From Thermoplasmatota archaeon (GTDB lineage Archaea > Thermoplasmatota > E2 > DHVEG-1), in assembly GCA_022848765.1 (NCBI GenBank), contig JAJISJ010000003.1, positions 1 through 39,279 of the forward strand: DNA of 39,279 nt. Direction: 5' to 3'. Below the pieces are notes generated by a model, which was not told where the DNA came from, made no database searches, and was given only the letters and a program-made list of their open reading frames with translations. Position numbers and translations under genes: made by a program. Positions 4,972 to 36,643 of the stretch are shown here, one piece after another. The first letter of the stretch is position 1, and each line of letters starts with the position of its first letter.

Positions 4972-6009
4972 TTGAGTGAAAATGGTGGAATTGATATACG
5001 ATATCTTCCAAGAGCATTGTTTATAACTATATCATCTATAGGTATAATGCCAGCAAGATTTTTATTTAAAATTCTCTATGAAACAAAGATTGAAAAAACT
5101 AAAATTACAAAACCACCTGTTTTTATTATTGGTCATTGGAGAAGTGGAACAACTTTCCTACATGAATTACTCAGTTATGATCCTCAGTTTAGTTACGTAA
5201 CCTTATGGATTACACTTCTACCTGATAGTTATCTGATTTTAAATCCAATGAAGAATTTTTTGTCTCAATTTTTACCATCTACAAGACCTATGGATCAAGT
5301 TGAGGTGGCTGCTGATGGACCATATGAGGAGGAAGCTGGATTGTCTGTCCTTTATGATTGGTCTTTTTTCCATGCACTTCATTTTCCGCGAAATGCTGAA
5401 CAACAATATTTAAAATCAATTCATTTCCAGGGTTTTACAAATGAAGAATTAAAAAATTGGAAGAAAATTTATTTAAAATTAATGAAAACTGTAACATTTG
5501 AAAATTCTGGAAAAAGACTGATATTGAAAAATCCTCCAAATTCAACGCGAATTAAAGAATTACTTGAAATATTTCCGGATGCTAAATTTATTCATATTTA
5601 CAGGAATCCATATAAGGTATATCTTTCAACTAAAAAAATGAGAACTAAAGTTTTAGATAAACTTGCTTTACAAGATGCTTATGAAGATGAAATAGAAGAT
5701 CAGGTTATTAATAACTATATTAGATTTATGAATAGTTTTTTTAAACAAAAGGGTCGGATTCCAAATAAAAATTTTGTAGAAATAAGTTATGAAGACTTAG
5801 TAGCTGAACCATTAAAACAAGTTCAAATAATATATGGTAAGCTTGATTTAACGGATTTTGATAAAGCAAAGCCATATTTAGAAAAATATCTTGAATCTAA
5901 AAAGGATTATAAAACTAATGTCTATAGTATTGATAAAAAAATAATTGATAAAGTTAAAATAAATTGGGGTTTTACTATTGACATGTGGAATTATAAACCG
6001 CCTAAATAA
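4972..6009 (+). CDS. PAPS-dependent sulfotransferase family protein
   Basis: PPVFIIGHWRSGTTFLHELLSYDP (5'-phosphosulfate-binding loop) and FIHIYRNPYKVYLSTKKM; TTG is the only conventional start, but homologous-looking sequence (HPLFGISIKNWIKI) continues upstream in frame. Confidence 0.85.
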   Translation: MSENGGIDIRYLPRALFITISSIGIMPARFLFKILYETKIEKTKITKPPVFIIGHWRSGTTFLHELLSYDPQFSYVTLWITLLPDSYLILNPMKNFLSQFLPSTRPMDQVEVAADGPYEEEAGLSVLYDWSFFHALHFPRNAEQQYLKSIHFQGFTNEELKNWKKIYLKLMKTVTFENSGKRLILKNPPNSTRIKELLEIFPDAKFIHIYRNPYKVYLSTKKMRTKVLDKLALQDAYEDEIEDQVINNYIRFMNSFFKQKGRIPNKNFVEISYEDLVAEPLKQVQIIYGKLDLTDFDKAKPYLEKYLESKKDYKTNVYSIDKKIIDKVKINWGFTIDMWNYKPPK

Positions 6010-6139
6010 TTTGAATATTTTTGATATTTTTATTTAAATAAATTATTTTGAAAAATTGGGATTGAATTGGGAATAAATATTTAATTAATATATTGTATTA
6101 TAAATACATAACAATAATATTAATAATTTAGAGGTTTTA

Positions 6140-8063
6140 ATGAATTTTAAAAATTATCATTTTATCAATAGTATTTTTATTTATTACATTATCGCTAAAT
6201 CCATCGTTTAATGCAATTAATGAAAATAATATAATTTCAAACAAATATGACAATAAGAATGATTGTTATGGTTTTATTATACCACTCCCAGAATCAGATA
6301 TAATAGCTGAAAAACCTGAAATTCAATATTCAACTATGAATCTTATTAATGATCTTTTAAGATTAAATATCTCAGTATATTGGTTAGCAAATTCAATATC
6401 ATTAAAAATAAAGGATATAAATAGTGAAGAAAATCCGAAAGATCTAATATTTAATCCCGGAACTTTTATAATTCCTTTTACTGGAAATAACTCAATTGAT
6501 ATCAAAATAATTGCAGTGATATATGATTATAATATTAGCCATGAAATACATAAAAATGATATAGTGCCCATTAAATCTTATATGATTTTACAACAATTAA
6601 ATCTTGAAACTCCATATAAATTATTTGAACCAAAAATTGCTTATTATTATGGTGATGGTGTTTACTCGAGATCCCTAAATTGGTATGTTTATACATTATA
6701 TAAATCAGGTTTTCTAACTAATGATTTTCTTTATGATGAAGAAGTTATTGAAGAATTAAATTATGATGATTATAATATTTTTATATGGCCTGGTGGAGAG
6801 ATACTGGAGGATATAAATAGTGATATTGGTCTTGTTACGCGCATACTTAAACAAAATACAATAAGAGATTTTGTTGCAGATGGGGGAGGTTATGTAGGTT
6901 CATGTTATGGAGCTTTCGCTGCATCTAGTGGAATTAGATTTCTACCTTTAACACTTTTAAATTATTATTTTCCTATAATCCCATCAGTGGGATATTTGTC
7001 AATACAAGACTGTACAACAGCACTGGCGATTTCTTGTACATTCAATATTAGTGTTTCAGATATCAATAACCCAGTTATTTATGGATCAGATGAAATATTA
7101 TATAATTCTCAATTAAGAGGAGGTCCAGTTTTTACTTGGTTAGGTAAAAACACACAATCCCTTGCAACAATAAAAGAGGTTAACTCTACAATATGGACTC
7201 ATTGGTTCAGAGAGTTATTTAGTGCAAATAGTTCTATTTCTAAAATGATAATCGATCTTTGGGTAAAATTTACTTCAGGTAAAACAATTTGGACGACCTC
7301 TGAATATGAAAACGGGAAAATTGTAACTTTTGGTGATCATCCTGAACTTGGACATATCAATCTAAATAGAATAGTGCATAATGCAGTATTTTATGTTTCA
7401 TCCATACAACAATCTGAACTTATTTCAGATTTTTCGTATCCTATTCAAGATTTGGAATCAATAGGTAATCAAAGTTTGAACATTTACTTAGATGATACAA
7501 TAAGTACCTTATTCTCAGAAATTAATAATGATATAGAATATAATCTAAATCATTTTAATTCATATAATAATAGAACTGATATTTTATTTAATAGAATATT
7601 TGAAATGATTGATCAAAATGAATTAAACTTTTCCTTTGCAATAGAAATATTTGTCTCAGGTTTTTGGGAATTTATAACTACAATTAATAGATCAAGAAAC
7701 TATCTAGATGACCCAATTAATTATGAAGACACATCTAACAATTTAATAAAATTAGATAGCATATATAATCAAATCGAGACAAATAATACATCTATTAAAA
7801 ATTTAATAATAGAACTAAAAGATGATATTTCAAATAAATTAAAAGAAGTTACAAATATTAATGATGAAATAAACAATGATCTATACCTATTAGAAAATAA
7901 AATTGAACATTATGATAATACAGAAAATCAAAACGAATCAATTATTGAGATATGTAGTAATTTATGGCATTACTCAAAATTAATAGACAGATTATGTTCC
8001 AACTTATATTTCGAATCATTAAAAACATTAAGAGAATCTTGGTATAATTATGAAACAATATAA
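6140..8063 (+). CDS. Exported BPL_N-like (class I glutamine amidotransferase fold) protein, paralog 1; signal peptide is out of frame with its ATG by one nucleotide
   Basis: GGYVGSCYGAFAASSG nucleophile elbow and GDHPE motif; paralogous to the next gene. ORF track starts at 6336, but the conserved N-terminus (DCYGFIIPLPES) and a signal peptide lie upstream; SD GAGGT (6131-6135) precedes ATG 6140. Confidence 0.7.
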
Positions 8064-8220
8064 CTAATCATTCATAATCAGTAATATATATTAATTTTGA
8101 CTTAAAAATATATAAATGATAAAAGCATTCATAATTCACAATTGTTAATGTATTATTATGTATAGAAAAAGATTAAAAATTTTAATTTAATATAAACTTT
8201 GAAAATGGGGACAACAAAAC

Positions 8221-12020: not shown

Positions 12021-14276
12021 ATGAAGAAATTATTAATTGTCATCCTTTTTATAGTCATACTAATATTAGCACCAATATCTTCATCATTTGAATCAGAATT
12101 TTTTGAAAATAAAGATATCAAATATAATTCATTGACCGTGTTTAAAATAAAATTAACTAATGATACAATAAACCAAATATATCAATTAATAGCAGATATT
12201 GAAGATAATATATGCAGAAATATTGCTTTAACAATTATTAATCAAATATTAACAAAGGATGGAGAGTTGTTAGTCAATAAATTTTTTAATATTTTAAGTG
12301 AAGAAGGTATCATAGATTTATATAAATTAAAGGACACTTCTGATGCTTTAGATGATTTATATGATTTTATTTTCGATTTATTTGTTGAAAGACTTGGATG
12401 GTTAAATGATCTCTTTGATAAAACCTCAAATATTATTAATGACGCTAAAGAATTATGGAATGACAGAACAATACCAAGTGAAATAAGAGACGAAATTCAA
12501 AATATTATAGATAAATTAAATGAGTTGGAAAGCTTATTGACTCTGCTAGCTGAGGGAAAATATTTACGATTTTTAAGGGATTGGGCTCCATTTATATTTA
12601 TTAACAATACTATTGCTATTGTTGAATCAATAAGTACAATTTCATATGACTTGGGAGTTCTTTTCGGAGATATTCGAAATTTTATTTATGATGTTTCAGA
12701 TTTTATTTCATGGTTTAGTGATGAACCATGGAAAGATCAGATATTTGTATATGGTCGGGTGATGAAAGATATTTTTAACGGAGCTTCAAATGTAACAATA
12801 AGTTGTATGAATGTAACAACTCAGACAGATGAAGATGGTAATTTTTCAATGTACGTATCTCCATCTCCTTCAGAGGTTTCTTTACCTCCAAACGAATATT
12901 ATGGAATCCATAAATGTGTAATTACTGCTGAGAAAGAGGGGATTACAAAGAGTAGTGTTGATAGCCTTTCTTATAGTTTCTCAGGTGGTAGTATTTTTTG
13001 GATGTTCATGTTAACTGATGACGATTCAATTTCTATTAAATATGATTTTTATTTTCAAAAATTATATGAGAAGTATCCTATTATGTTTGAACCAATTTGT
13101 TTTAATGATGTAAATAATTTTATTAATCCAATTCCATGTGCTATAGTTAATACACCAGATGAATTTAATTGGAAGAAACTCGATGGAGAGGATTGGACTA
13201 CTCCTGCTAAAAATCAAGATAATTGTGGAAGTTGTTGGGATTTTGCAGCGATTGGAACGTTAGAGAGTATTATTAAAATCAGAGAAAATCGTTCAGAGAT
13301 TAACCCTGATTTATCTGAACAATATGTTTTATCATGTTTACCGATGGCCGCAAATAACTATGGACAAGGTTGCTTAGGCGGAACCCCATATAATGCTTTT
13401 TATTTCATGATGGATACATCATATCAAGGTAATAGTTATAATGGAGCTATTCCTGAATCATGTTTTCCATATCAGGCTGATGATGACGTACCTTGTACTG
13501 ATAAATGTGAAAATTGGATCGATTATCTTATTCCAATATCTGACTGCGGAGAAACCTGGTTAGGATTTGATAGCCTTGAAGCAAGGGATACAATAAAATC
13601 TCTGATTTATCAAGATGGTCCAATTGCTGCAGGCATAAATGTAACTGAGGATTTTATTAATTATTGGTCTTTTAATAATAATGAAAACGATTATTATCCA
13701 GATACAAATGAACCTTGGGGTAATCAATTAAATCATATTATTGTAATTGTAGGTTGGAAAGATGACCCGGGTATTGATAATGGTGGGTATTGGATCTGCA
13801 AAAATAGTTGGGGGGTAGAATGGGGTTTTGATGGTTTCTTTAATATCGAATATGGTGGATTATTTATTGGAACATATATTTCTTGGGTAGATTATCAACC
13901 AAATGATCAGAGACCTGAAAAACCTTCAAGACCTATTGGTATAATTGATGGAAAAACAAATACAGATTACTGTTATTCAAGTAGTAGTATTGATCCAAAT
14001 GGTGATCAGATTTTTTTCTTATTTGATTGGGGGGACGGGACAGATAGTAATTGGATTGGACCATATGATTCTGGTGAAATTGTAAATATAACCCATAGTT
14101 GGAATATGAGGAGAAATTATGAAATAAAAACAAAAGTGAAAGATATACATGATTTAGAAAGCGAATGGTCAGATCCCTTAATTGTTAGTATGCTACATAT
14201 TAGATCATTCGATAATATTAATCTATGGCTCTTTAGATTAACCCAGCGATTCCCAAAACTTGATTTTCTACAATAA
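12021..14276 (+). CDS. Exported C1A papain-family cysteine protease with N-terminal helical region, beta-sandwich insert and C-terminal PKD-like domain
   Basis: Signal peptide MKKLLIVILFIVILILAPISSS; KNQDNCGSCWDFAAIG (Cys), LNHIIVIVGWKDD (His), CKNSWGVEWGFDGFF (Asn); PKD-like FFLFDWGDGTDSNWIGPYDSGEIVNITHSW. Confidence 0.9.
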   Translation: MKKLLIVILFIVILILAPISSSFESEFFENKDIKYNSLTVFKIKLTNDTINQIYQLIADIEDNICRNIALTIINQILTKDGELLVNKFFNILSEEGIIDLYKLKDTSDALDDLYDFIFDLFVERLGWLNDLFDKTSNIINDAKELWNDRTIPSEIRDEIQNIIDKLNELESLLTLLAEGKYLRFLRDWAPFIFINNTIAIVESISTISYDLGVLFGDIRNFIYDVSDFISWFSDEPWKDQIFVYGRVMKDIFNGASNVTISCMNVTTQTDEDGNFSMYVSPSPSEVSLPPNEYYGIHKCVITAEKEGITKSSVDSLSYSFSGGSIFWMFMLTDDDSISIKYDFYFQKLYEKYPIMFEPICFNDVNNFINPIPCAIVNTPDEFNWKKLDGEDWTTPAKNQDNCGSCWDFAAIGTLESIIKIRENRSEINPDLSEQYVLSCLPMAANNYGQGCLGGTPYNAFYFMMDTSYQGNSYNGAIPESCFPYQADDDVPCTDKCENWIDYLIPISDCGETWLGFDSLEARDTIKSLIYQDGPIAAGINVTEDFINYWSFNNNENDYYPDTNEPWGNQLNHIIVIVGWKDDPGIDNGGYWICKNSWGVEWGFDGFFNIEYGGLFIGTYISWVDYQPNDQRPEKPSRPIGIIDGKTNTDYCYSSSSIDPNGDQIFFLFDWGDGTDSNWIGPYDSGEIVNITHSWNMRRNYEIKTKVKDIHDLESEWSDPLIVSMLHIRSFDNINLWLFRLTQRFPKLDFLQ

Positions 14277-25647: not shown

Positions 25648-25870
25648 ATTTTGTCCCCTAACTACTGATATTTCAAACCAATATTAATATATAAATCCTT
25701 TTTATATAAATATATCCTTAACAAATGTTAATGAAATATTAATTATATTTTCCAAATAAATATCATTTTTATAATAATTATTTCCAATCTGGACACAATT
25801 GAAACCCAAATTAAATATTTTTTCTTGAATAATCCCCTTTTTATATACAAGAATTATATTGTATTATTAA

Positions 25871-26468: not shown

Positions 26469-27386
26469 ATGGTTGAAAAAATAGAAAAGAATCCTTTTTC
26501 TGAACATCTCTTTGAATATAGAAATGTTGAAAAGAAAAAACTGAGTCTTTCACTATTAATTACAACTATTGTAATGTTTGTTGAAATTATTGGTTTTTTT
26601 ACTACTAATAGTATTGCATTGTTAAGTGATGCTGGCCATATGTTTACCCATTCATTCGCAATTGCAATAAGTTTAATTGCAATTATTATTGCAAAAAAAC
26701 CTCCTTGTCATCATAGAACTTTTGGATTATATAGAGCAGAAATATTAGCAGCTTTTATCAATGGTATTTTTTTATTACTAGTTGTAATTTTAATAATTTG
26801 GGAAGCAATTCAAAGACTAATACACCCTGAAGAAGTTCTTGGTTTTCAAATGCTTTTTATTGCATTAATTGGACTTTTTGTAAACATAATCAGTATAGGA
26901 ATATTGCATGGAAGCCATAAAGAAAATATGAATATTCGCGGAGTTTTTTATCATATGATAGCAGATGCAATATCATCTGTGGGTATTATTTTTGCAGCAA
27001 TTATTATTCTTTTCACTGGATGGAATCTAATTGATCCATTAGTTAGTCTTTTAATATCAGGTTTAATATTATACTGGGCTTGGGGTATTTTAAAAGAATC
27101 TTCAAGAGTTTTACTTGAAACAGCTCCTAAAGGTTTAGATTGTGATATAGTAAAAAATGATTTGAAAAAAAATTTTTCAGAGATTAAAAATTTGAATAAT
27201 ATGCACCTTTGGGCTATAATACCAGAAATGATTGTATTCTCTGCTCATATATCTTTAAAAGAAGATCAAGATAACATTGATACTGAAAAATTAGTCACAA
27301 AAATAAATAAATATTTAGCTTCAAAATATAATATAATAGAATCAACAATTCAAATATCATCAGATGAAGATCTTTTAACTTGTTAA
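26469..27386 (+). CDS. CDF (cation diffusion facilitator) family metal transporter
   Basis: SIALLSDAGHMFTHSFAIAISL, HHRTFGLYRAEILAAFING, FYHMIADAISSVGII, VSLLISGLILYWAW. Confidence 0.9.
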   Translation: MVEKIEKNPFSEHLFEYRNVEKKKLSLSLLITTIVMFVEIIGFFTTNSIALLSDAGHMFTHSFAIAISLIAIIIAKKPPCHHRTFGLYRAEILAAFINGIFLLLVVILIIWEAIQRLIHPEEVLGFQMLFIALIGLFVNIISIGILHGSHKENMNIRGVFYHMIADAISSVGIIFAAIIILFTGWNLIDPLVSLLISGLILYWAWGILKESSRVLLETAPKGLDCDIVKNDLKKNFSEIKNLNNMHLWAIIPEMIVFSAHISLKEDQDNIDTEKLVTKINKYLASKYNIIESTIQISSDEDLLTC

Positions 27387-27398
27387 ATGATTTTTATT

Positions 27399-27878
27399 CT
27401 AAAGTTTATTTATTGTTTCATCAAAATATTTTTTTATAAAATCGATAATAATAGTTATCTCCTGGATTTTCTCCTTGTTTTCAATTTTAAGATAATACTC
27501 CTTTATAGCTGTTATAAATGCTAGAATTGCTGTTGGTGGGCAATGCCAATTTTTATCAGGAACCTTACCAAGTTCATCATTGATTAGTTTTAATAAATCA
27601 TCAAAAGTTTTATTTCCAATAATAATTTCATTCAATTTTTTTCCTTTGACTATCTCAGTTAGAACTGATGCAGATGCTATTGTTGCTGTACAACCTATTG
27701 TTTTAAACTTTATATCCTCAATTTTATCTTCTCTGATTTTAATATATATGTCTGTTCTATATCCATTAATAGGATTTTCTACACTAGAATATCCATCATA
27801 ATTTTTGATTACCCCAACGTTTCTTGGTCTCATAAAATGTTCTAATAATCTATCTTTTGTTATTTTCATTTTAACCAT
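27399..27878 (-). CDS. IscU/NifU-N-like Fe-S scaffold family protein, divergent at first cluster ligand
   Basis: HFMRPRNVGVI, FKTIGCTATIASASVLTEIVKGK, NWHCPPTAILAFITAI; expected NPxCGD reads NPINGY. Confidence 0.8.
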   Translation of the reverse strand: MVKMKITKDRLLEHFMRPRNVGVIKNYDGYSSVENPINGYRTDIYIKIREDKIEDIKFKTIGCTATIASASVLTEIVKGKKLNEIIIGNKTFDDLLKLINDELGKVPDKNWHCPPTAILAFITAIKEYYLKIENKEKIQEITIIIDFIKKYFDETINKL

Positions 27879-27886
27879 TTAAAAAA

Positions 27887-29317
27887 TTATTTACATTTTC
27901 TTTTACAGGATTCAATAGTATTTATATTTGATACTACAAGTGGTGCAGGTTTTCCTGTTTCTGTGTCATCTTCAATTTTATTTACTTCTTTAATATTCAA
28001 CTTTACATTTGTTCCAATATTTTCTTTATATATTTTCTTTATTTTTTCAGAAATTTCATTGAAAGAAGGTTCTTTATTTCTTTGATCTTCATCAATTTCT
28101 ATTAGAATATCAATTTCATCTATTGTGTTCTGAATGATTTGATATTTTTTTACTTTAAAAGTTTTTAATTTATTTAATACATCTGTGATATACAAAAATT
28201 GACTTGGAGGTATACTTCTACCATCAGGAAGATGTATATTTGATAATATTCTCCCCTCAACTGGTCTTCCAAATATCGGACTTTTTAGTCCACAAGAACA
28301 TTTTTCTCCATTTCCAAGTGTTATCCAATCTTCCATGCCTGTATATCTAATTATTGGAGTGCCTGTTCCCCATAGTTTTGTTATAACAAGTCGACCACGT
28401 TCACCAGGATTAACTAGTTCCATATTTTCATCTACTGCTTCCAAATGGAAGAAATCTGAGTGAATATGCCAGTTTCCTTCGGTACATTCGAAAGCGATTT
28501 CTGCACCTGATTCACAAGAAGAATATGTGTTAAACATTCTACAATTAAAAGCTGTTTCAACATAATTTCTAGTGTAGTTGTCCAGCATTGCTCCTCCAAC
28601 AAAAAGTAGTTTTGGTTTAACGTTATTACCAAAGCCTTTTCTTTTAAGATATGCCATATCTTGGAAAATAGCGGGATAGGATATAATTACATCTGGTTTG
28701 AATGTTTCTAATTTTTCAATTATTTCATGGGTTTTATTTGATGCTTGTATGTTATAATAGTTATCGAAGGAAACGAAAGTTTTAGCATATTTTATCACAT
28801 TTTTTTCAAAGACTTCATCAAATTTATAAGGATTAAAATTACCTATATGTGCAAATCTTGTATTTCTCATATTTAGATTATGAAACCTGTTTTCCCTTGT
28901 TGTAATTATACTCCCCCTCAATAAACTTGGCGTATCTGTATAAGTACATACTGGATCAGATCCGCTATTACAACAATATTTTGTTGTTGTTCCACCTGTA
29001 CATATAATATGCCCTTTATCTAGGTCAAAATCTGGTGATACAACACCGTCAGGGTAATTTTCGCTTAGATCTTGTCTTGAGATGAATGGTAATTTTATTA
29101 TATCTTTTATTCCTTGGATGTCATTTGGATTTATCCCTGATTTTTTGTATTTATTTTTGTATACTGGGACTTTATATGCTTTTGAAAAAATTTTTTTTAG
29201 AGCTTTATCTCTATATTTTTCTAATTCTTTTGGATTTAGTCGTTCTAATCTCTTCGGATCTTGTATATAATTATTTATGAATGGAATTATTATTCGAGGA
29301 TTTAAAAATGGATTCAT
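27887..29317 (-). CDS. PaaK/CapK-like AMP-forming ligase (phenylacetate-CoA ligase-related)
   Basis: TGGTTTKYCCNSG (phosphate-binding loop), TYSSCESG, IRYTGMEDWITLGNGEKCSCGLKSPIFGRPVEGR. Confidence 0.8.
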   Translation of the reverse strand: MNPFLNPRIIIPFINNYIQDPKRLERLNPKELEKYRDKALKKIFSKAYKVPVYKNKYKKSGINPNDIQGIKDIIKLPFISRQDLSENYPDGVVSPDFDLDKGHIICTGGTTTKYCCNSGSDPVCTYTDTPSLLRGSIITTRENRFHNLNMRNTRFAHIGNFNPYKFDEVFEKNVIKYAKTFVSFDNYYNIQASNKTHEIIEKLETFKPDVIISYPAIFQDMAYLKRKGFGNNVKPKLLFVGGAMLDNYTRNYVETAFNCRMFNTYSSCESGAEIAFECTEGNWHIHSDFFHLEAVDENMELVNPGERGRLVITKLWGTGTPIIRYTGMEDWITLGNGEKCSCGLKSPIFGRPVEGRILSNIHLPDGRSIPPSQFLYITDVLNKLKTFKVKKYQIIQNTIDEIDILIEIDEDQRNKEPSFNEISEKIKKIYKENIGTNVKLNIKEVNKIEDDTETGKPAPLVVSNINTIESCKRKCK

Positions 29318-29431
29318 TTTTCAACCCAACATTTATTTTTTAATATTTAAATATTTTATAAAGAATTCTTTCTAATATTTTTAATAAAATATTCATTAAT
29401 TTTTTAATTAAAATGTAAATTCACAAAAAAA

Positions 29432-30097
29432 TTAAGATGATAGTCTACTAATTCTTTTCTCATAATTTTTAATATGTAGTTTTTTAAGAGCGTTTATTAA
29501 ATTATTAACTCCAGTTATTTTAACTGCATATTTATCAGCAGATTTTTCATCGTTATATCTTCTAAAAGTGAGAGATGAGATAGCTAGTAATGATGAAACT
29601 ATTTTATTTGGACTATACTTTAGATGATAAATTTCATGTGCAATAACAGCTCTAATTTCTTCTTTTTCTAATCTTTCGAGCAAACCAATTGATAGATAAA
29701 TCCTTTTTCGGTAATGGAAAGCCTTTATTCTCTGCGAATCAATAATTTGAATCGGAACATTGAACTCTTTTTCAAATTCGTAGACGAAAGATATTGAATT
29801 AATAATATTTTCATCTATCTCATTATCTAATAAATTTTTAATGATAAATATCATTAAAGATCCAATTAATATAATTCCAAGATATATCCATAACCAATTG
29901 AACATAGTACAACTCATTGCAATTAGACTAATTGTAATAACTCCTGTTATTAATGTTTGACTTAAAAGTAAGGATTCAAAATTTCTTTTTTTAATAAATC
30001 TAAACAAGAATATGGATATGAAACCAATCATAATTATAATTGGTAATAATAAAGATGATTCAATTAAACATGAAATGTAACATTCCAAACCATTCAT
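29432..30097 (-). CDS. M56 (BlaR1/MecR1-like) membrane metallopeptidase without recognisable sensor domain
   Basis: N-terminal TM segments; RAVIAHEIYHLKYSP (HExxH) and YNDEKSADKYAV; 5-bp gap to BlaI-like gene. Confidence 0.8.
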   Translation of the reverse strand: MNGLECYISCLIESSLLLPIIIMIGFISIFLFRFIKKRNFESLLLSQTLITGVITISLIAMSCTMFNWLWIYLGIILIGSLMIFIIKNLLDNEIDENIINSISFVYEFEKEFNVPIQIIDSQRIKAFHYRKRIYLSIGLLERLEKEEIRAVIAHEIYHLKYSPNKIVSSLLAISSLTFRRYNDEKSADKYAVKITGVNNLINALKKLHIKNYEKRISRLSS

Positions 30098-30102
30098 ATT
30101 TG

Positions 30103-30468
30103 TTATCTTCCTTTTTTTGAAATTTTACCAATTGAATCAAGAGTTGATTCTCCAAATGTGTCAACAAGACTTTCTAATATTTTTGTGGAAATTTTATTTC
30201 CAACATTTTTTCTATCGCCTGAAGGAGAGTAAATGTATCTAACTCTTTTTTCTGTCTCGTCAAGTTTTCTATTTACAAAACCAGATTTAACTAATCTATC
30301 TAATGTTCCTGAAACACATGCAAGAGATAGATCATTACAAACAAATTGAATATCTGGCGATGTCATTTTTCTATTTTTCCAGAGTAATTCTAATATTCTA
30401 CCTTCATTTGGACTGAAAAATTTTGTTAATCCTTTTTTTTCGAGATTTATTCTTTCTAATTTAACCAT
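30103..30468 (-). CDS. BlaI/MecI/CopY family winged-helix repressor
   Basis: NEGRILELLWKNRKMTSPDIQFVCNDLSLACVSGTLDRLVKSGFVNRKLDETEKRVRYIYSP. Confidence 0.85.
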   Translation of the reverse strand: MVKLERINLEKKGLTKFFSPNEGRILELLWKNRKMTSPDIQFVCNDLSLACVSGTLDRLVKSGFVNRKLDETEKRVRYIYSPSGDRKNVGNKISTKILESLVDTFGESTLDSIGKISKKGR

Positions 30469-30471
30469 TGC

Positions 30472-30488
30472 TTTACATATATTGTAAA
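30472..30488. promoter_or_regulatory. Putative BlaI-type operator O1
   Basis: TTTACATATATTGTAAA, between TATA-like (30494-30502, minus strand) and BlaI start codon. Confidence 0.75.
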
Positions 30489-30530
30489 CAAGGGTATATA
30501 AGCTTTGTCATACAAGGGATAACATTTAAC

Positions 30531-30547
30531 TTTACATTTGCCGTAAA
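30531..30547. promoter_or_regulatory. Putative BlaI-type operator O2
   Basis: TTTACATTTGCCGTAAA, directly upstream of TATA-like TATTTATA (30549-30556). Confidence 0.75.
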
Positions 30548-30574
30548 GTATTTATAGTATGCGCAACATATAGG

Positions 30575-30591
30575 TTTACATTAGGTGTAAA
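30575..30591. promoter_or_regulatory. Putative BlaI-type operator O3
   Basis: TTTACATTAGGTGTAAA, over the predicted TSS and 2 nt before ATG 30594. Confidence 0.75.
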
Positions 30592-30593
30592 CA

Positions 30594-30683
30594 ATGTTTG
30601 TTAAATTAAAAAAAATTTTTAGATTAATTTTTCGACAAAAAAAAGTAAATAGGAGGTTTGATCTGGGTCTAATATTTTTATAA
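30594..30683 (+). CDS. Possible 29-aa basic small ORF (MFVKLKKIFRLIFRQKKVNRRFDLGLIFL)
   Basis: ATG in the same position relative to O2/O3 as the ABC permease ATG is to O4/O5. Confidence 0.4.
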   Translation: MFVKLKKIFRLIFRQKKVNRRFDLGLIFL

Positions 30684-30769
30684 TTTATTCTTACCTCCTT
30701 GAATGTTATAGAATATTTACCTCCGTTAAATAAAAATCTCAGATCATCCTCCCATCTTTTCTCCTATTT
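30647..30769 (+). ncRNA. Possible structured RNA / imperfect inverted repeat downstream of first operator-promoter unit
   Basis: AAATAGGAG (30647-30655) pairs with CTCCTATTT (30761-30769); GATCTGGG (30660-30667) pairs with CTCAGATC (30738-30745); TTACCTCC direct repeats in the loop. Confidence 0.35.
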
Positions 30770-30832
30770 GATTTTCCAATATTGTTAAAATTAATGGATA
30801 TAATTTCTTCAATTTAGTAATAAAATTGTTTG

Positions 30833-30849
30833 TTTACAATAACCGTAAA
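30833..30849. promoter_or_regulatory. Putative BlaI-type operator O4
   Basis: TTTACAATAACCGTAAA, directly upstream of TATATATAA (30851-30859). Confidence 0.75.
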
Positions 30850-30876
30850 GTATATATAATTTGAAAAACAATACTG

Positions 30877-30893
30877 TTTACAATTGGTGTAAA
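30877..30893. promoter_or_regulatory. Putative BlaI-type operator O5
   Basis: TTTACAATTGGTGTAAA, over predicted TSS, 3 nt before ATG 30897. Confidence 0.75.
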
Positions 30894-30896
30894 ACA

Positions 30897-32153
30897 ATGT
30901 TTTGGCGTATATTAAGAAAATCAATAACCAAAAGAAAATCTAGAATCGCGATTGCAATAATCTCAGTATTAATGGGAGCATCAATTGCTACTGCGTTATT
31001 AAGTGTATCAATGGATGTAAGTGAAAAAGTAGGTTTTGAATTTAGAAAATATGGTGCAAACTTGATGGTAGTACCAAAATCAGATATTATTGATGTAGGC
31101 TTTCCTGGCGTAGATTTTGGAGCTGTTACAGATCAGCGATATATAAATGAGAGTGATCTTTGGAAAATTAAAAGTATTTTCTGGAGAAATAATGTACTAG
31201 GTTTTGCACCATTATTATATCAGGTAGTAGAGATTGGAGATGGAGAAAATAATCAGAATGTGGTCCTTGCTGGAACATATTTCAATAAAGATATTGAAAT
31301 TATAGAACCATATTCTACATATGATGATCCTATTTTTAATACTGGAATTAAAGTAATAAGTCCATGGTGGAATGTTAATGGAAGTTGGATAGAAAATTCT
31401 AGTGATAATAAAAGTAGTATGGTTGGTATTAATGTTGCTGAAAAAATTGGTTTAAAAATTGGAGATACTTACACTATTTCATTTATTAGAGATTATGAAG
31501 ATCAAACTAATATCTCATATTATGATTTAACAATAATAGGAATAATTGAAACTGATGGTAATGAAGATAATCAAATATTTGTTAACTTACAAGTAGTTCA
31601 AAATATAACAGGTTTATCTGGAAAAGTACATACGGTCCAGGTTTCTGCTCTTTGTAATAATTGTCCAGTAGATACGTTTGCTTATGAAATTCAAGGAGCT
31701 ATCCCCTATGTAGATGCAAGATCGGTAAAACAACTTGTAAGCGCAGAGATGAATATATTAGGTAAAATTGAAGACATGATGTTTTTAGTAACAATAGTGG
31801 CACTACTTGCTTCTGCTCTTGGTGTAATGACTACAATGACAACCTCAGTTATAGAGAGAAAAAAAGAAATAGGTCTTATGAAGAGCGTAGGTGCTGAAAA
31901 TAAAAAAATTGTTGCATTATTTTTAGGGGAAGCAACAATAATTGGTATAGCTGGTGGTATTTTAGGATATATAATTGGATTTGCGCTCTCTCAGTTTATT
32001 GGGATGAGTGTTTTCAATACCACAATATCGTCAAGAATTGAAGTTCTACCTATTGCTATTGGAATTTCGGTCGGTGTTTCATTATTAGCTAGCATCCTAC
32101 CGGTACGAAGAGCAACGAAAGTAGAACCTGCAATAGTTTTACGAGGTGAATAA
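30897..32153 (+). CDS. MacB/FtsX-type ABC transporter permease
   Basis: MFWRILRKSITKRKSRIAIAIISVLMGASIATALL ... VIERKKEIGLMKSVGAENKKIVALFLGEATIIG ... ASILPVRRATKVEPAIVLRGE; supplied ORF starts at TTG 30861 but reads through operator O5. Confidence 0.85.
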   Translation: MFWRILRKSITKRKSRIAIAIISVLMGASIATALLSVSMDVSEKVGFEFRKYGANLMVVPKSDIIDVGFPGVDFGAVTDQRYINESDLWKIKSIFWRNNVLGFAPLLYQVVEIGDGENNQNVVLAGTYFNKDIEIIEPYSTYDDPIFNTGIKVISPWWNVNGSWIENSSDNKSSMVGINVAEKIGLKIGDTYTISFIRDYEDQTNISYYDLTIIGIIETDGNEDNQIFVNLQVVQNITGLSGKVHTVQVSALCNNCPVDTFAYEIQGAIPYVDARSVKQLVSAEMNILGKIEDMMFLVTIVALLASALGVMTTMTTSVIERKKEIGLMKSVGAENKKIVALFLGEATIIGIAGGILGYIIGFALSQFIGMSVFNTTISSRIEVLPIAIGISVGVSLLASILPVRRATKVEPAIVLRGE

Positions 32154-32156
32154 TCA

Positions 32157-32810
32157 ATGGAAAATCATGTTATTGATATAAAGAATATTTCAAAGATATA
32201 TGAAAACAATACAAGAGCATTAGACAACCTAAGTTTGATTATTAAACAGGGTGAATGGACATCAATTATGGGACCATCTGGATCAGGAAAAACTACACTT
32301 CTGAATGTTATCGGATGTCTAGATTCACCAACGAATGGAAAAGTAATAATTAATGGTACAGAAATTACAAAATTAAATCGCAATGAGCTTACAAGATTCA
32401 GAAGAGAAAATATTGGGCTTATTTTTCAACAATATCATCTAGTTCCATATCTTTCGGCTCTAGAAAATGTAATGATGGCACAATATTATCACAGTGTTGT
32501 AAATGAAAATGATGCAATTAATGCTTTGAAAAAAGTAGGATTGGATCATAGACTTGATCACATACCTGCTCATCTATCTGGTGGAGAACAACAAAGAGTT
32601 TGCATTGCAAGGGCATTAGTAAATGAGCCAAGAATACTTCTTGCTGATGAGCCCACAGGAAATCTTGATCAAAAAAATGGTGAGGTTGTACTAAAATTAA
32701 TCAAGAATCTCCACGAGGAAGGACATACTATAATTTTAATAACTCACAATCCACAAATAGGAAAATTAGGTGATAAACAGCTAAATTTAGTTGATGGTAA
32801 AATTAATTAA
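32157..32810 (+). CDS. ABC transporter ATP-binding protein (MacB/LolD-type)
   Basis: MGPSGSGKTTLLN Walker A, HLSGGEQQRVCIARAL signature, ILLADEPTGNLD Walker B. Confidence 0.95.
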   Translation: MENHVIDIKNISKIYENNTRALDNLSLIIKQGEWTSIMGPSGSGKTTLLNVIGCLDSPTNGKVIINGTEITKLNRNELTRFRRENIGLIFQQYHLVPYLSALENVMMAQYYHSVVNENDAINALKKVGLDHRLDHIPAHLSGGEQQRVCIARALVNEPRILLADEPTGNLDQKNGEVVLKLIKNLHEEGHTIILITHNPQIGKLGDKQLNLVDGKIN

Positions 32811-32836
32811 TAAATCATTTTGGAGGAATATAAAAT

Positions 32837-33415
32837 ATGAGTAAAAAATATAAAATAAATAAAGAAGAAATGAGTAGAGTAGAAAAAAGAAAAATAGAAC
32901 TAAGAAGAAGAAAACAAAAAAGAACAAAACTAATGATGGCAGCTTCATTCATACTTATTGCAATTATTGGTATGGTAATTGTCTATGCAGTATTTAGCAG
33001 TCCAAATGAAGATATATTAAATGATGAGAAAAATAAAACCCCTACAAATCCATCCGATATCACAACTGGGTCACAACTAAGTATATCCTTATCTGATATT
33101 GATAATAATGCAAAATTCTATAGTTATGATGTTGATGATGTTGAAATTAAATATTTTGCATTGACGGGTTCAGATGGAAAAGTACATGTTGCTTTAGATG
33201 CCTGTGATGTATGTTATGGTTCAAAAAAGGGTTATGTTCAAGTTGGGGATGTAATGCGTTGTGTCAATTGCGGGAATCAATATCCCATAAACAGTTTAGG
33301 AACTGAAAATACTCAAGGAGGATGCTGGCCAAGTTATATACCTATGAAAATTGAAGATGATAATATTCTAATTGAAAAATCTGATTTGGAAAATAAGAGA
33401 TATATGTTTATATGA
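32837..33415 (+). CDS. DUF2318-like Fe-S-type membrane protein
   Basis: One TM near N-terminus; VALDACDVCYGSKKGYVQVGDVMRCVNCGNQYPINSLGTENTQGGCWPSYIP. Confidence 0.85.
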   Translation: MSKKYKINKEEMSRVEKRKIELRRRKQKRTKLMMAASFILIAIIGMVIVYAVFSSPNEDILNDEKNKTPTNPSDITTGSQLSISLSDIDNNAKFYSYDVDDVEIKYFALTGSDGKVHVALDACDVCYGSKKGYVQVGDVMRCVNCGNQYPINSLGTENTQGGCWPSYIPMKIEDDNILIEKSDLENKRYMFI

Positions 33416-33585
33416 TTATTTTCCATTCATTTTCTAAGATTGTCTAATTCATCAATTATTCCAAAAGAAGGCCCTAATGTTGCTGATATACCCTTTTTAT
33501 TAAGGTTACGAATATTAGATCCTTTCACTCGTATTTTAGATATTATTTTAATGTTAATTATTTTTGGATAATACTTAAAATTATT

Positions 33586-35682
33586 TCAATTAAATAATTC
33601 CTTAAGATTTTTTAAATTTGTTATCGGTTTTTTACATTGATAATTTTCACATAAATAAACTGTTGTTTTATTTTCAATTATCTCATAATTTTTAAGATAT
33701 GAGCATAATTCTATAATCGATTTTTTTTCATCTTTACTAGAAATTTTAATTGAAATTGTATTTGGTAAATATTGATTCCTAATTTCATTTATAAATTTGT
33801 TAGTTTCTGTTTTATTTTTTCCTTCAATTATAATAATTTCAAAGTTAGGTCCTAAAGCAAAATCTAATGCGGATAATAAGAAAGTGTAACCACTTGGATA
33901 TCTAATAATATCTAGTGAAAATGAATTCATTATTTGACTTGCCATTTCTTCAAAATTTGAATTACTAGTAATTCTACTTAATTTTAAAAGATTCATAGCT
34001 GATACCGAATTTGATGATGGAATTGCTCCGTCATATATTTCCTTAGTATTCAATAATTCTTGGTTATCCTTATTTGAAAATTGAAATCCTTTACCTCTTT
34101 CATCCCAGAAATGTTTAATAAAATAATCATTAAGATCAAGAGCTTTAGATAAATATTTAGTTTTATGATTTGATTGATATAATTCAATAAGTCCCCAAAT
34201 AAAAAATGCATAATCATCAGCAAATCCCATAATTGCTGATTCTCCATCTTTGTATCTATGCAAAAGTTCAGTATTTTTTTTATACATATTTTTTAAAATA
34301 AAATCTGCAGTTTTCTCTGCAATATTTAAATATTCATCTATGTAAAAAACAAATCCTGCCTTGGCAAGAGCCGCGATAATCAATCCATTCCAATCTGTTA
34401 AAATTTTATCATCTTTTAAGGGAGGTATACGTTTACTGCGAATTTGAAACATTTTTGATAATATTTTATTTATTTCATCAGATGTTTTTATAATTTTTCC
34501 ATTCAATTCTTGTTTTGATTCTTCTGTTAAATCATTTTGAAAAATAACATTTTTTCCTGAGAGTTTATTAGTTGATTCTTCTAAGTAATTTCCTTCTTTT
34601 CTTATAATAAATTTTTTTTTAATTATTTCAAATTCATTTTTTGTAAGTATTTTTTGTAATTCATTATAACTCCATGTATAATATTTTCCTTCAACTCCCT
34701 CACTATCAGCGTCTTCTGCAGAATAAAAACCTCCTTCATTTGATTTCAAATCTCTTAAGATATAACTTATGATTTCCCTTGCAATTTTTTTGAATAAAGG
34801 ATTTTTTGTTGCTTGATATGCCTCAGTATATGCAATTATTAACATAGCTTGATCATAAAGCATTTTTTCAAAATGAGGGAGAATCCATTGTCTATCGGTA
34901 GAATACCTGTGAAAACCATATCCAACATGATCATATATACCTCCTTGATACATATCTGTAAGTGTTTGTTCAACCATTTTCAAAGCATATTTTGTATTTG
35001 TTTTTTTCCAATATCTAAGGAGAAATAATAAATTATGTGGAGTTGGAAATTTTGGAGCAATATTAAATCCTCCATGTAATTCATCATAACTAGTCAGTAG
35101 ACTTTCATAGGCTTGATCTAAGATTTTTTTATCAATTATTTTTTTTTCATTTTGATTTTCTAATTGAATTTTTAAATTATTTGTTATCTCTTTTGATGAG
35201 TCAATAAGTTTATCTTTATCATTATCCCATAATTTTTTTATTTTTGGTAATATCTCAAGCATTCCATTTTGTCCAAATCTACCTTTTTTAGGAATATATG
35301 TAGCAGCAAAAAATGGTTTTTTATCAGGTGTCATAATTATTGTTAGAGGCCACCCTCCAGAACCTGTAATCATTTGACAGAATTTCATATAAATGTTATC
35401 AATATCAGGCCGTTCTTCTCTATCAACTTTTATGCTTATAAAATTTTTATTAAGTATTTCAGCAACTGTCGTATCCTCAAATGATTCATGTGCCATAACA
35501 TGGCACCAATGACAAGTTGAATATCCAATTGATAAAAAAATTGGTTTATCTTCTTCTTTTGCATTATTAAATGCTTCATCAGTCCAGGAATACCAGTTCA
35601 CGGGATTATTAGCATGTTGTAAAAGATAAGGACTTTTTTCAAATCCAAGTTTATTTCTTAGTTTTTTTTGTTTTGATTTCAT
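33586..35682 (-). CDS. Thioredoxin-domain DUF255 (YyaL/SPATA20-like) protein
   Basis: [13 protein letters not shown]...[23 protein letters not shown]...[36 protein letters not shown]. Confidence 0.95.
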
Positions 35683-35752
35683 AAAATATTACCAACTTTT
35701 TTATCTTATAATGATAATTTATAAAAAAAGGTATTATATTTATTTTTATTTG

Positions 35753-36643
35753 ATGAATTTATCTGGATTACGTTATGAGGGCCCAATCTATAGACCCCCT
35801 AGTGAAACAAATAGTCTTCTTATACAGACAACAATAGGATGTCCCTGGAATAAATGTACTTTTTGCATGGTTTATAAGAATGGTCCAAAATTTAAAATTC
35901 GACCAGTTGAGGAGATTAAAGAAGATTTATTATGGGCGAAAAAAAATTATTTATTTCCAATTGAAACTGTATTTTTTCCATCTGGAAATAGTATTATAAT
36001 GAAGACTGATGATTTTGTTGAAATTTTAATTTATACCAAAAAATTATATCCTAATTTGAAAAGAATAACAATATATGGATCTTCTCAATATATTGTAAAA
36101 AAAGGATTAAAAGATATTAAAAGATTAGCAGATGCTGGTTTATCAAGAATACATGTTGGATTAGAATCAGGATCGGATGTTGTTTTAAAAAATGTATGCA
36201 AAGGATCAACATCAGATATACAAATAGAAGCAGGAGAAATTGTAAAAAAATCTGATGTTGAACTAAGTGAATATGTAGTACTAGGTCTGGGTGGGAAAAA
36301 ACATAGTAAACAACATATTTCAGAAACAATAAAAATTCTAAATATTATTAACCCAGATTTCATAAGAATTCGAACTTTTTTACCAAAAATTAATACTCCA
36401 ATATTAAATGAAATTGATTCAGGATCATTTAAAATTCTATCGCCTCATGAAGTGTTAAAAGAAACTTATGATTTAATTAAAGGGTTAAAGGTAACAAGTC
36501 AGGTATTAAGTGATCATTATACAAATTATATCCAAGTAAAGGGTAGACTTCCTGAAGATAAAGATGTAATGCTAAAATCAATTGATCAATCTTTAAAAAA
36601 AGATAAAAATGTTTTTAGAAAAATATATATTGGAACTGAATAA
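35753..36643 (+). CDS. Radical SAM protein
   Basis: YRPPSETNSLLIQTTIGCPWNKCTFCMVYKNGPKFKIRPVEEI; LSRIHVGLESGSD; start likely at in-frame ATG 35753 rather than 35711. Confidence 0.85.
   Translation: MNLSGLRYEGPIYRPPSETNSLLIQTTIGCPWNKCTFCMVYKNGPKFKIRPVEEIKEDLLWAKKNYLFPIETVFFPSGNSIIMKTDDFVEILIYTKKLYPNLKRITIYGSSQYIVKKGLKDIKRLADAGLSRIHVGLESGSDVVLKNVCKGSTSDIQIEAGEIVKKSDVELSEYVVLGLGGKKHSKQHISETIKILNIINPDFIRIRTFLPKINTPILNEIDSGSFKILSPHEVLKETYDLIKGLKVTSQVLSDHYTNYIQVKGRLPEDKDVMLKSIDQSLKKDKNVFRKIYIGTE

Follow-up and report, generated by a model that had tools for sequence, protein, structure and literature searches.

A BlaI-like repressor, a membrane metallopeptidase and a candidate hairpin RNA at an archaeal ABC-DUF2318 locus

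BlaI and MecI, winged-helix repressors of the Penicillinase_R family, are autoregulated, act on TACA/TGTA-type half-sites and are encoded beside the membrane HExxH peptidases BlaR1 and MecR1. Protease-relieved circuits of this type are known from bacteria, as are small RNAs directed against Shine–Dalgarno (SD) sequences. Here we describe a locus that may combine the two. It lies in a stretch of 39,279 nucleotides from a Thermoplasmatota archaeon (contig JAJISJ010000003.1 of assembly GCA_022848765.1), referred to as the window. On the best reading of the sequence, a BlaI-like repressor and a membrane metallopeptidase control a metal-handling ABC-DUF2318 module. Between repressor and permease lies a further unit (30531–30770), overlooked in a preliminary description of this DNA: it has operators of its own and is predicted to encode a separate, structured RNA. 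The core switch is a variant of the BlaI–protease kind; the hairpin RNA is the surprising part. The window belongs to an archaeal metagenome-assembled genome (MAG) of 1.2 Mb that is 82% complete (G000), and the family set comprises 45 genomes.

The protein-coding genes of the locus are:

29432–30097, minus strand: M48-like membrane metallopeptidase (221 residues), the proposed sensor and protease
30103–30468, minus strand: winged-helix repressor of the BlaI/MarR clan (121 residues; PF03965)
30897–32153, plus strand: FtsX/MacB-type permease (PF02687, PF12704)
32157–32810, plus strand: ABC ATPase of the LolD/MacB type (PF00005; TIGR02211 family region)
32837–33415, plus strand: DUF2318/FtrD-like protein (PF10080, 91.7 versus 26.3 bits)

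These coordinates agree with the preliminary description, which had placed repressor and peptidase genes 5 bp apart and opposite the permease, ATPase and DUF2318 genes. The arrangement is conserved at nine further MAG loci, synteny in relatives having been named in advance as a check. Repressor and peptidase face the permease, ATPase and DUF2318 genes in L048, L049, L050, L053, L055, L056, L057 and L058, and L054 has the same gene set within 5 kb. In L052 the DUF2318 gene alone lies opposite the pair; for L051, the ABC operon was located on a different contig and has a double operator of its own. Of the relatives with a name, the nearest that carry the locus are MAGs entitled Thermoplasmatales archaeon or Candidatus Thermoplasmatota archaeon; further orthologs come from MAGs entitled Euryarchaeota and Methanomicrobia.

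All five palindromes reported in the preliminary description were recovered without a mismatch, and the window contains no other perfect site. They follow the consensus TTTACR-N5-YGTAAA and start at 30472, 30531, 30575, 30833 and 30877. The half-sites are 5 bp apart in all operators of the window type; those of BlaI (TACA-N2-TGTA) are 2 bp apart. Together with their promoters the sites are arranged as follows:

30472–30488, unstranded: operator of the repressor-peptidase operon (TTTACATATATTGTAAA), a perfect palindrome
30531–30547, unstranded: upstream operator of the hairpin-RNA promoter, a palindrome match in the shared architecture
30549–30556, plus strand: TATA box (TATTTATA) of the hairpin-RNA promoter, with the 1-bp offset from the operator found in 13 of 13 promoters
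30575–30591, unstranded: hairpin-RNA promoter, downstream operator spanning the position where transcription is expected to start
30592–30770, plus strand: candidate hairpin RNA, from folds, a covariance model and comparable units elsewhere
30833–30849, unstranded: upstream operator of the ABC promoter, a palindrome match in the shared architecture
30851–30858, plus strand: TATA box (TATATATA) of the ABC promoter, in the shared architecture
30877–30893, unstranded: ABC promoter, downstream operator spanning the expected transcription start, 3 bp before the permease ATG

The operator at 30472–30488 lies after a TATA box, 4 bp before the repressor start, and has the same place in most relatives. 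Conservation of the palindromes, also named in advance as a check, was found at the same promoters: most relatives have them at the repressor start and the permease promoter, in imperfect form at some promoters of distant ones. The strict pattern TTTACRNNNNNYGTAAA occurs at eight places in the genome of the window, compared with one in the reversed control. Two of the three matches outside the locus form another 44-bp pair (contig C121); the third is inside an open reading frame (ORF). Double operators, defined as two palindromes 20–32 bp apart, number 13 in eight of the 45 family genomes and zero in the reversed control. Seven of them precede ABC/DUF2318 genes and six precede hairpin RNAs without an ORF. 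All 13 are built alike: the first operator is followed after one base by TATWTAWA, and the centre of the second operator lies 29–31 bp past the TATA box, where archaeal transcription is expected to start. The site at the repressor's own start and the co-conservation of sites and gene suggest that the neighbouring repressor binds these operators. Operator control of three units (repressor, ABC operon and hairpin RNA) is very probable.

A single perfect operator, not a pair, is present at the promoters of the ABC and copper ATPase genes of G061 (L054, L075); the double-operator layout may therefore be confined to the family of the window and a few others. Another operator of this genome (L078:1932–1948, G061:C66) lies just past a TATA-like box and leads into a gene for a large secreted protein with TSP3 repeats. 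Single palindromes at G004:C59, G009:C42/C49/C77, G034:695681, G006:1944844 and G000:C79 are within predicted ORFs, look like chance matches and were discarded, as was one between a tRNA-like sequence and an ORF in G001, a genome without a repressor ortholog.

The RNA of the window is predicted to form a basal stem, in which 30652–30667 pairs with 30738–30752, and a CU-rich tail, with CCUCC unpaired at 30694–30698 and 30720–30724. Its strand is fixed by the orientation of the TATA box, which matches the ABC promoters. Six units have a double operator: the window (30531–30770), C121 of the same genome, G068/G060 (a single genome, that of L051), G009, G034 and G016. The same RNA is found at the repressor locus of G006, where the second operator is imperfect, and two more units, in G026 and G006, lie away from the repressor locus behind a single perfect operator. 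A long basal stem is predicted in every unit. The stem sequences vary while complementarity is kept, as in GGAGG-UGAUCUG/CAGAUCA-CCUCC (window), GGGGAGU-UGGUCUG/CAGAUCA-ACUCCCC (G060), GGGAGU-UUCUGGAAGA/UCUUCCAGAA-ACUCCC (C121) and UAAAGGGGUCAAA/UUUGACCCCUUUA (G026). C/U-rich segments with CCUCC or CCUCU, predicted to be unpaired, are enclosed by the stem and, in most units, also lie 3' of it. In nine of nine units at least one CCUCC, CCUCU or UCCCU has an unpaired probability of at least 0.68.

Fold energies are below the dinucleotide-shuffle mean in 9/9 units, four of them strongly (z-scores of −3.0 to −4.5), related units not being independent. With a covariance model trained on four relatives and not on the window, the window RNA scored 22.5 bits and the second G006 unit 28.4 bits. 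No Rfam family reached its gathering score in the window; in four other loci, searched at E ≤ 0.5, a tRNA was the only match. A small ORF was considered and rejected for these units, as their first ATG yields unrelated short peptides. We regard a discrete RNA as likely.

At least two more hairpin-like sequences with GGGAGG/CCUCC are located 3' of the C121 unit (L023, about 5770–6160), preceded by different AT-rich promoter-like sequences.

What such an RNA could do is suggested by its exposed C/U-rich motifs. In a 400-kb sample of G026, a strong SD motif precedes 20% of the genes, compared with 4% of internal start codons. Roughly one gene in four has a TATA box near the ATG and no SD. Both SD-led and near-leaderless mRNAs thus seem to exist. 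Within a genome, the RNA loops and tails are predicted to pair more favourably with start regions than with internal ones. The repressor and permease genes, which lead the regulon, are almost leaderless and so should escape an anti-SD RNA. The 3' tail of 16S rRNA was not found by pattern search in five MAGs, and searches of a limited literature collection yielded no archaeal small RNA of this kind. We judge the chances of an anti-SD action of the hairpin RNA to be about even.

The nearest functional analogues would be the cuckoo/alpha-r14 RNAs (NfeR1) of Alphaproteobacteria, which silence mRNAs through unpaired anti-SD motifs (PMC10746234). Both kinds are hairpin RNAs with variable stems, unpaired anti-SD motifs and several units per genome. 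However, the archaeal RNA has one basal stem instead of three hairpins, mostly carries CCUCC instead of CCUCCUCCC and stands behind promoters with operators, and its silencing is a matter of predicted pairing. FsrA, IsrR and RyhB resemble it in being under a metal-type repressor together with metal-transport genes and in facing SD sequences with C-rich segments. They differ in that the archaeal repressor would be relieved by a protease and not by metal loss, probably under metal excess, and no sequence relation to the archaeal RNA was shown.

The repressor matches PF03965 (Penicillinase_R) with 31.6 bits at a cut-off of 22.6, as do 12 of 12 orthologs at E ≤ 0.001, and is 58–73% identical to its orthologs in 11 relatives. 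A C-terminal metal site of the CopY type, CxCx(4-5)CxC, is present in none of the 12 repressor orthologs, which makes sensing by a partner plausible. With CopY the repressor shares the Penicillinase_R family, the TACA/TGTA half-sites and, in one relative, a copper P-type ATPase operon as target; unlike CopY it has a peptidase partner, no C-terminal CxCxxxxCxC and a different half-site spacing.

The M56 label of the preliminary description for this partner did not hold. In the Pfam scan, which covered the ten proteins at 26469–36643, the peptidase is above the cut-off for M48 (34.3 versus 20.3 bits) and below that for M56 (14.9 versus 31). PF01435 (M48) is found in 10 of 10 orthologs, and PF05569 (M56) matches six of ten, only at E ≤ 0.05. 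The absence of a penicillin-binding sensor was correctly noted: the 221-residue protein ends after the peptidase domain, and no such Pfam match was seen. In this, in its M48 assignment, in its archaeal host and in its targets, a metal-type transporter and an RNA, the circuit departs from BlaI/BlaR1 and MecI/MecR1. The HExxH motif is HEIYH at 154–158, with H154, E155 and H158 invariant; E184, the presumed third zinc ligand, is Glu in eight orthologs and Gln in the G009 and G034 proteins. A predicted model (AlphaFold, mean pLDDT 72) has three membrane helices (17–37, 41–59, 63–96), and Foldseek places M48 members first and BlaR1 lower, with low TM-scores. Adjacency and co-conservation, by analogy with the bacterial pairs, suggest that the peptidase cleaves or otherwise inactivates the repressor. 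Relatives contain another, separate pair, in which a BlaI-like gene accompanies a BlaR1-like peptidase that does belong to M56 (77–78 bits; L016:332–1958, L017:51–1770). Its upstream repeats are different, of the TACA-N3-TGTA type, and the window pair is thus a distinct, reduced version.

The peptidase also has a candidate sensor. C10, M61, C63 and M65 are invariant and C6 is nearly so, forming CxxxC (C6, C10) and MxCxM (M61, C63, M65). From the predicted helices and the positive charges after the first of them, these residues are probably on the outer face. The preliminary description had proposed a metal, redox or envelope signal. Its metal-handling module remains the best reading; its view that the signal was wholly unknown no longer applies, CxxxC and MxCxM being a candidate sensor. 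Copper or a similar metal is indicated by three independent hints, namely these Cys and Met residues, an operon of G061 and the DUF2318 protein itself. In G061 a perfect operator is found at the promoter of genes for an HMA protein, a P-type ATPase (599 bits versus a copper cut-off of 397), a thioredoxin/Sco-like protein and a second HMA protein. In gut Firmicutes, DUF2318 proteins have been inferred to belong to the copper regulon of CsoR (PMC4938975). A thiophilic metal such as copper is, by a small degree, the favoured signal.

As in the FtrABCD and P19-Fet systems, the locus combines a DUF2318/FtrD protein with an FtsX-type permease and an ATPase; unlike them it has no FTR1 permease or P19, a single permease and a BlaI-type repressor. 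No Pfam match to FTR1 or P19 (FtrA) was obtained among the ten scanned proteins, the rest of the genome not having been searched. The permease starts at ATG 30897, not at TTG 30861, and an alignment of ten orthologs shows an invariant Cys pair (C253, C256) in its extracytoplasmic domain. The DUF2318 protein has a single predicted N-terminal membrane segment and, in alignment, invariant Cys residues. A gene for a thioredoxin-fold DUF255 protein adjoins the operon.

The following mechanism would unite these observations. At rest, a dimer of the BlaI-like repressor would occupy the operators placed on both sides of, or behind, the TATA boxes of the three units. The outer face of the peptidase, with CxxxC and MxCxM, would sense metal or thiol chemistry, most likely copper, and its cytoplasmic HExxH domain would inactivate the repressor, leading to derepression of the repressor gene, the ABC-DUF2318 operon and the hairpin RNA. 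The ABC-DUF2318 complex may then handle the metal outside the membrane, while the RNA, if expressed, would compete for SD sequences with its exposed CCUCC loops. SD-led translation would be lowered, and the near-leaderless lead genes would escape. As the best single account, the mechanism in its entirety stands at roughly equal chances of being right or wrong.

The same switch could instead respond to iron limitation, with the ABC-DUF2318 proteins importing iron as in FtrABCD/P19 and the RNA sparing it like RyhB, FsrA or IsrR. DUF2318 does form part of iron-uptake clusters such as fetMP-fetABCDEF of Campylobacter, and a small RNA and a transporter under one metal repressor follow the logic of RyhB and IsrR. 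But the locus has no FTR1 or P19 gene, DUF2318 also occurs in the CsoR regulon, the operator is found on the CopA operon of G061, and the candidate sensor conserves Cys and Met, not His and Glu; we consider iron unlikely. Equally improbable is redox or envelope stress, in which the peptidase would sense oxidised thiols or membrane damage and the FtsX/MacB transporter with the Cys-rich DUF2318 protein would serve repair or export. The peptidase, the permease and the DUF2318 protein all have conserved Cys pairs, which would fit, as would the adjoining DUF255 gene and the frequent role of M48 proteases in membrane quality control. Against it are the operator at the CopA operon of one relative and the Met conserved beside Cys, which suits Cu(I) more than disulfide sensing. 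An alternative of a different kind assigns the hairpin to the permease mRNA, as its leader, as an attenuator or as a structure at a transcription end. In the window the hairpin precedes the permease in the same orientation, its promoter resembles the ABC promoter, and some fold z-scores are modest. However, the permease has a complete double-operator promoter of its own, stand-alone units without a downstream ABC gene exist in G000:C121, G016, G060/G068, G026 and G006, and pairing is kept despite changing stem sequences, so that we give this explanation little credence.

Several observations weigh against our account of a copper-responsive switch with an anti-SD RNA. Single palindromes have a background of zero to three chance matches per genome. 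The link between operator and CopA comes from one genome only; other CopA promoters checked in relatives have no operator, and G000, G004, G026 and G034 have the switch and no CopA match. Two peptidases have Gln at the presumed third zinc ligand (L028:7228–7893 in G009 and L029:6590–7255 in G034, where Q replaces E in the NDExxAD motif). Outside the four strong cases the fold z-scores are weak (−0.7 to −1.8). The RNA is missing at the repressor locus of G004, G026 and distant relatives, and is thus not obligatory. A shuffled loop from G026 pairs with starts nearly as often. SD-like sequences are also present at the ATPase and DUF2318 genes, which might be targets too.

Beyond this regulon, a hairpin search blind to operators gave many weak covariance matches, several convincing by eye (TATA box, CCUCC loop) and others within ORFs. 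A promoter-blind scan of 2 × 400 kb yielded seven intergenic candidates, of which three had a TATA box on the CU strand alone, three on both strands and one on neither. With results so mixed, a wider hairpin class is suggestive only. A second class of palindromes, similar to TTAACAATYGTTAA, has six strand matches in the window versus 0.14 expected (8135–8148, 12228–12241 and 25718–25731). Sites of this class were also found in L116, L118, L119, L121, L124 and L130 and at position 116440 of the G026 sample. They adjoin other CU-loop hairpin RNAs without the metal operator, and possibly define another regulon with its own hairpin RNAs.

We tentatively propose, as a possibility below even chances, that a protease-relieved archaeal repressor induces the ABC-DUF2318 genes together with a global anti-SD RNA that spares near-leaderless genes, and that this is one branch of an undescribed class of CU-loop hairpins whose other branches have their own operators, such as TTAACAATYGTTAA. 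With the conserved double operator as an exact search motif, the regulon can be looked for in other genomes. If the proposal is right, two devices familiar from bacteria would be joined in one archaeal regulon, with a compact sensor of metal type and a precise operator-TATA-operator promoter. Metal stress would affect transcription and translation together, and its coupling to protein synthesis would take a form new for archaea. Near-leaderless and SD-led mRNAs could then be separated by rule, which would give their coexistence in archaea a regulatory meaning.

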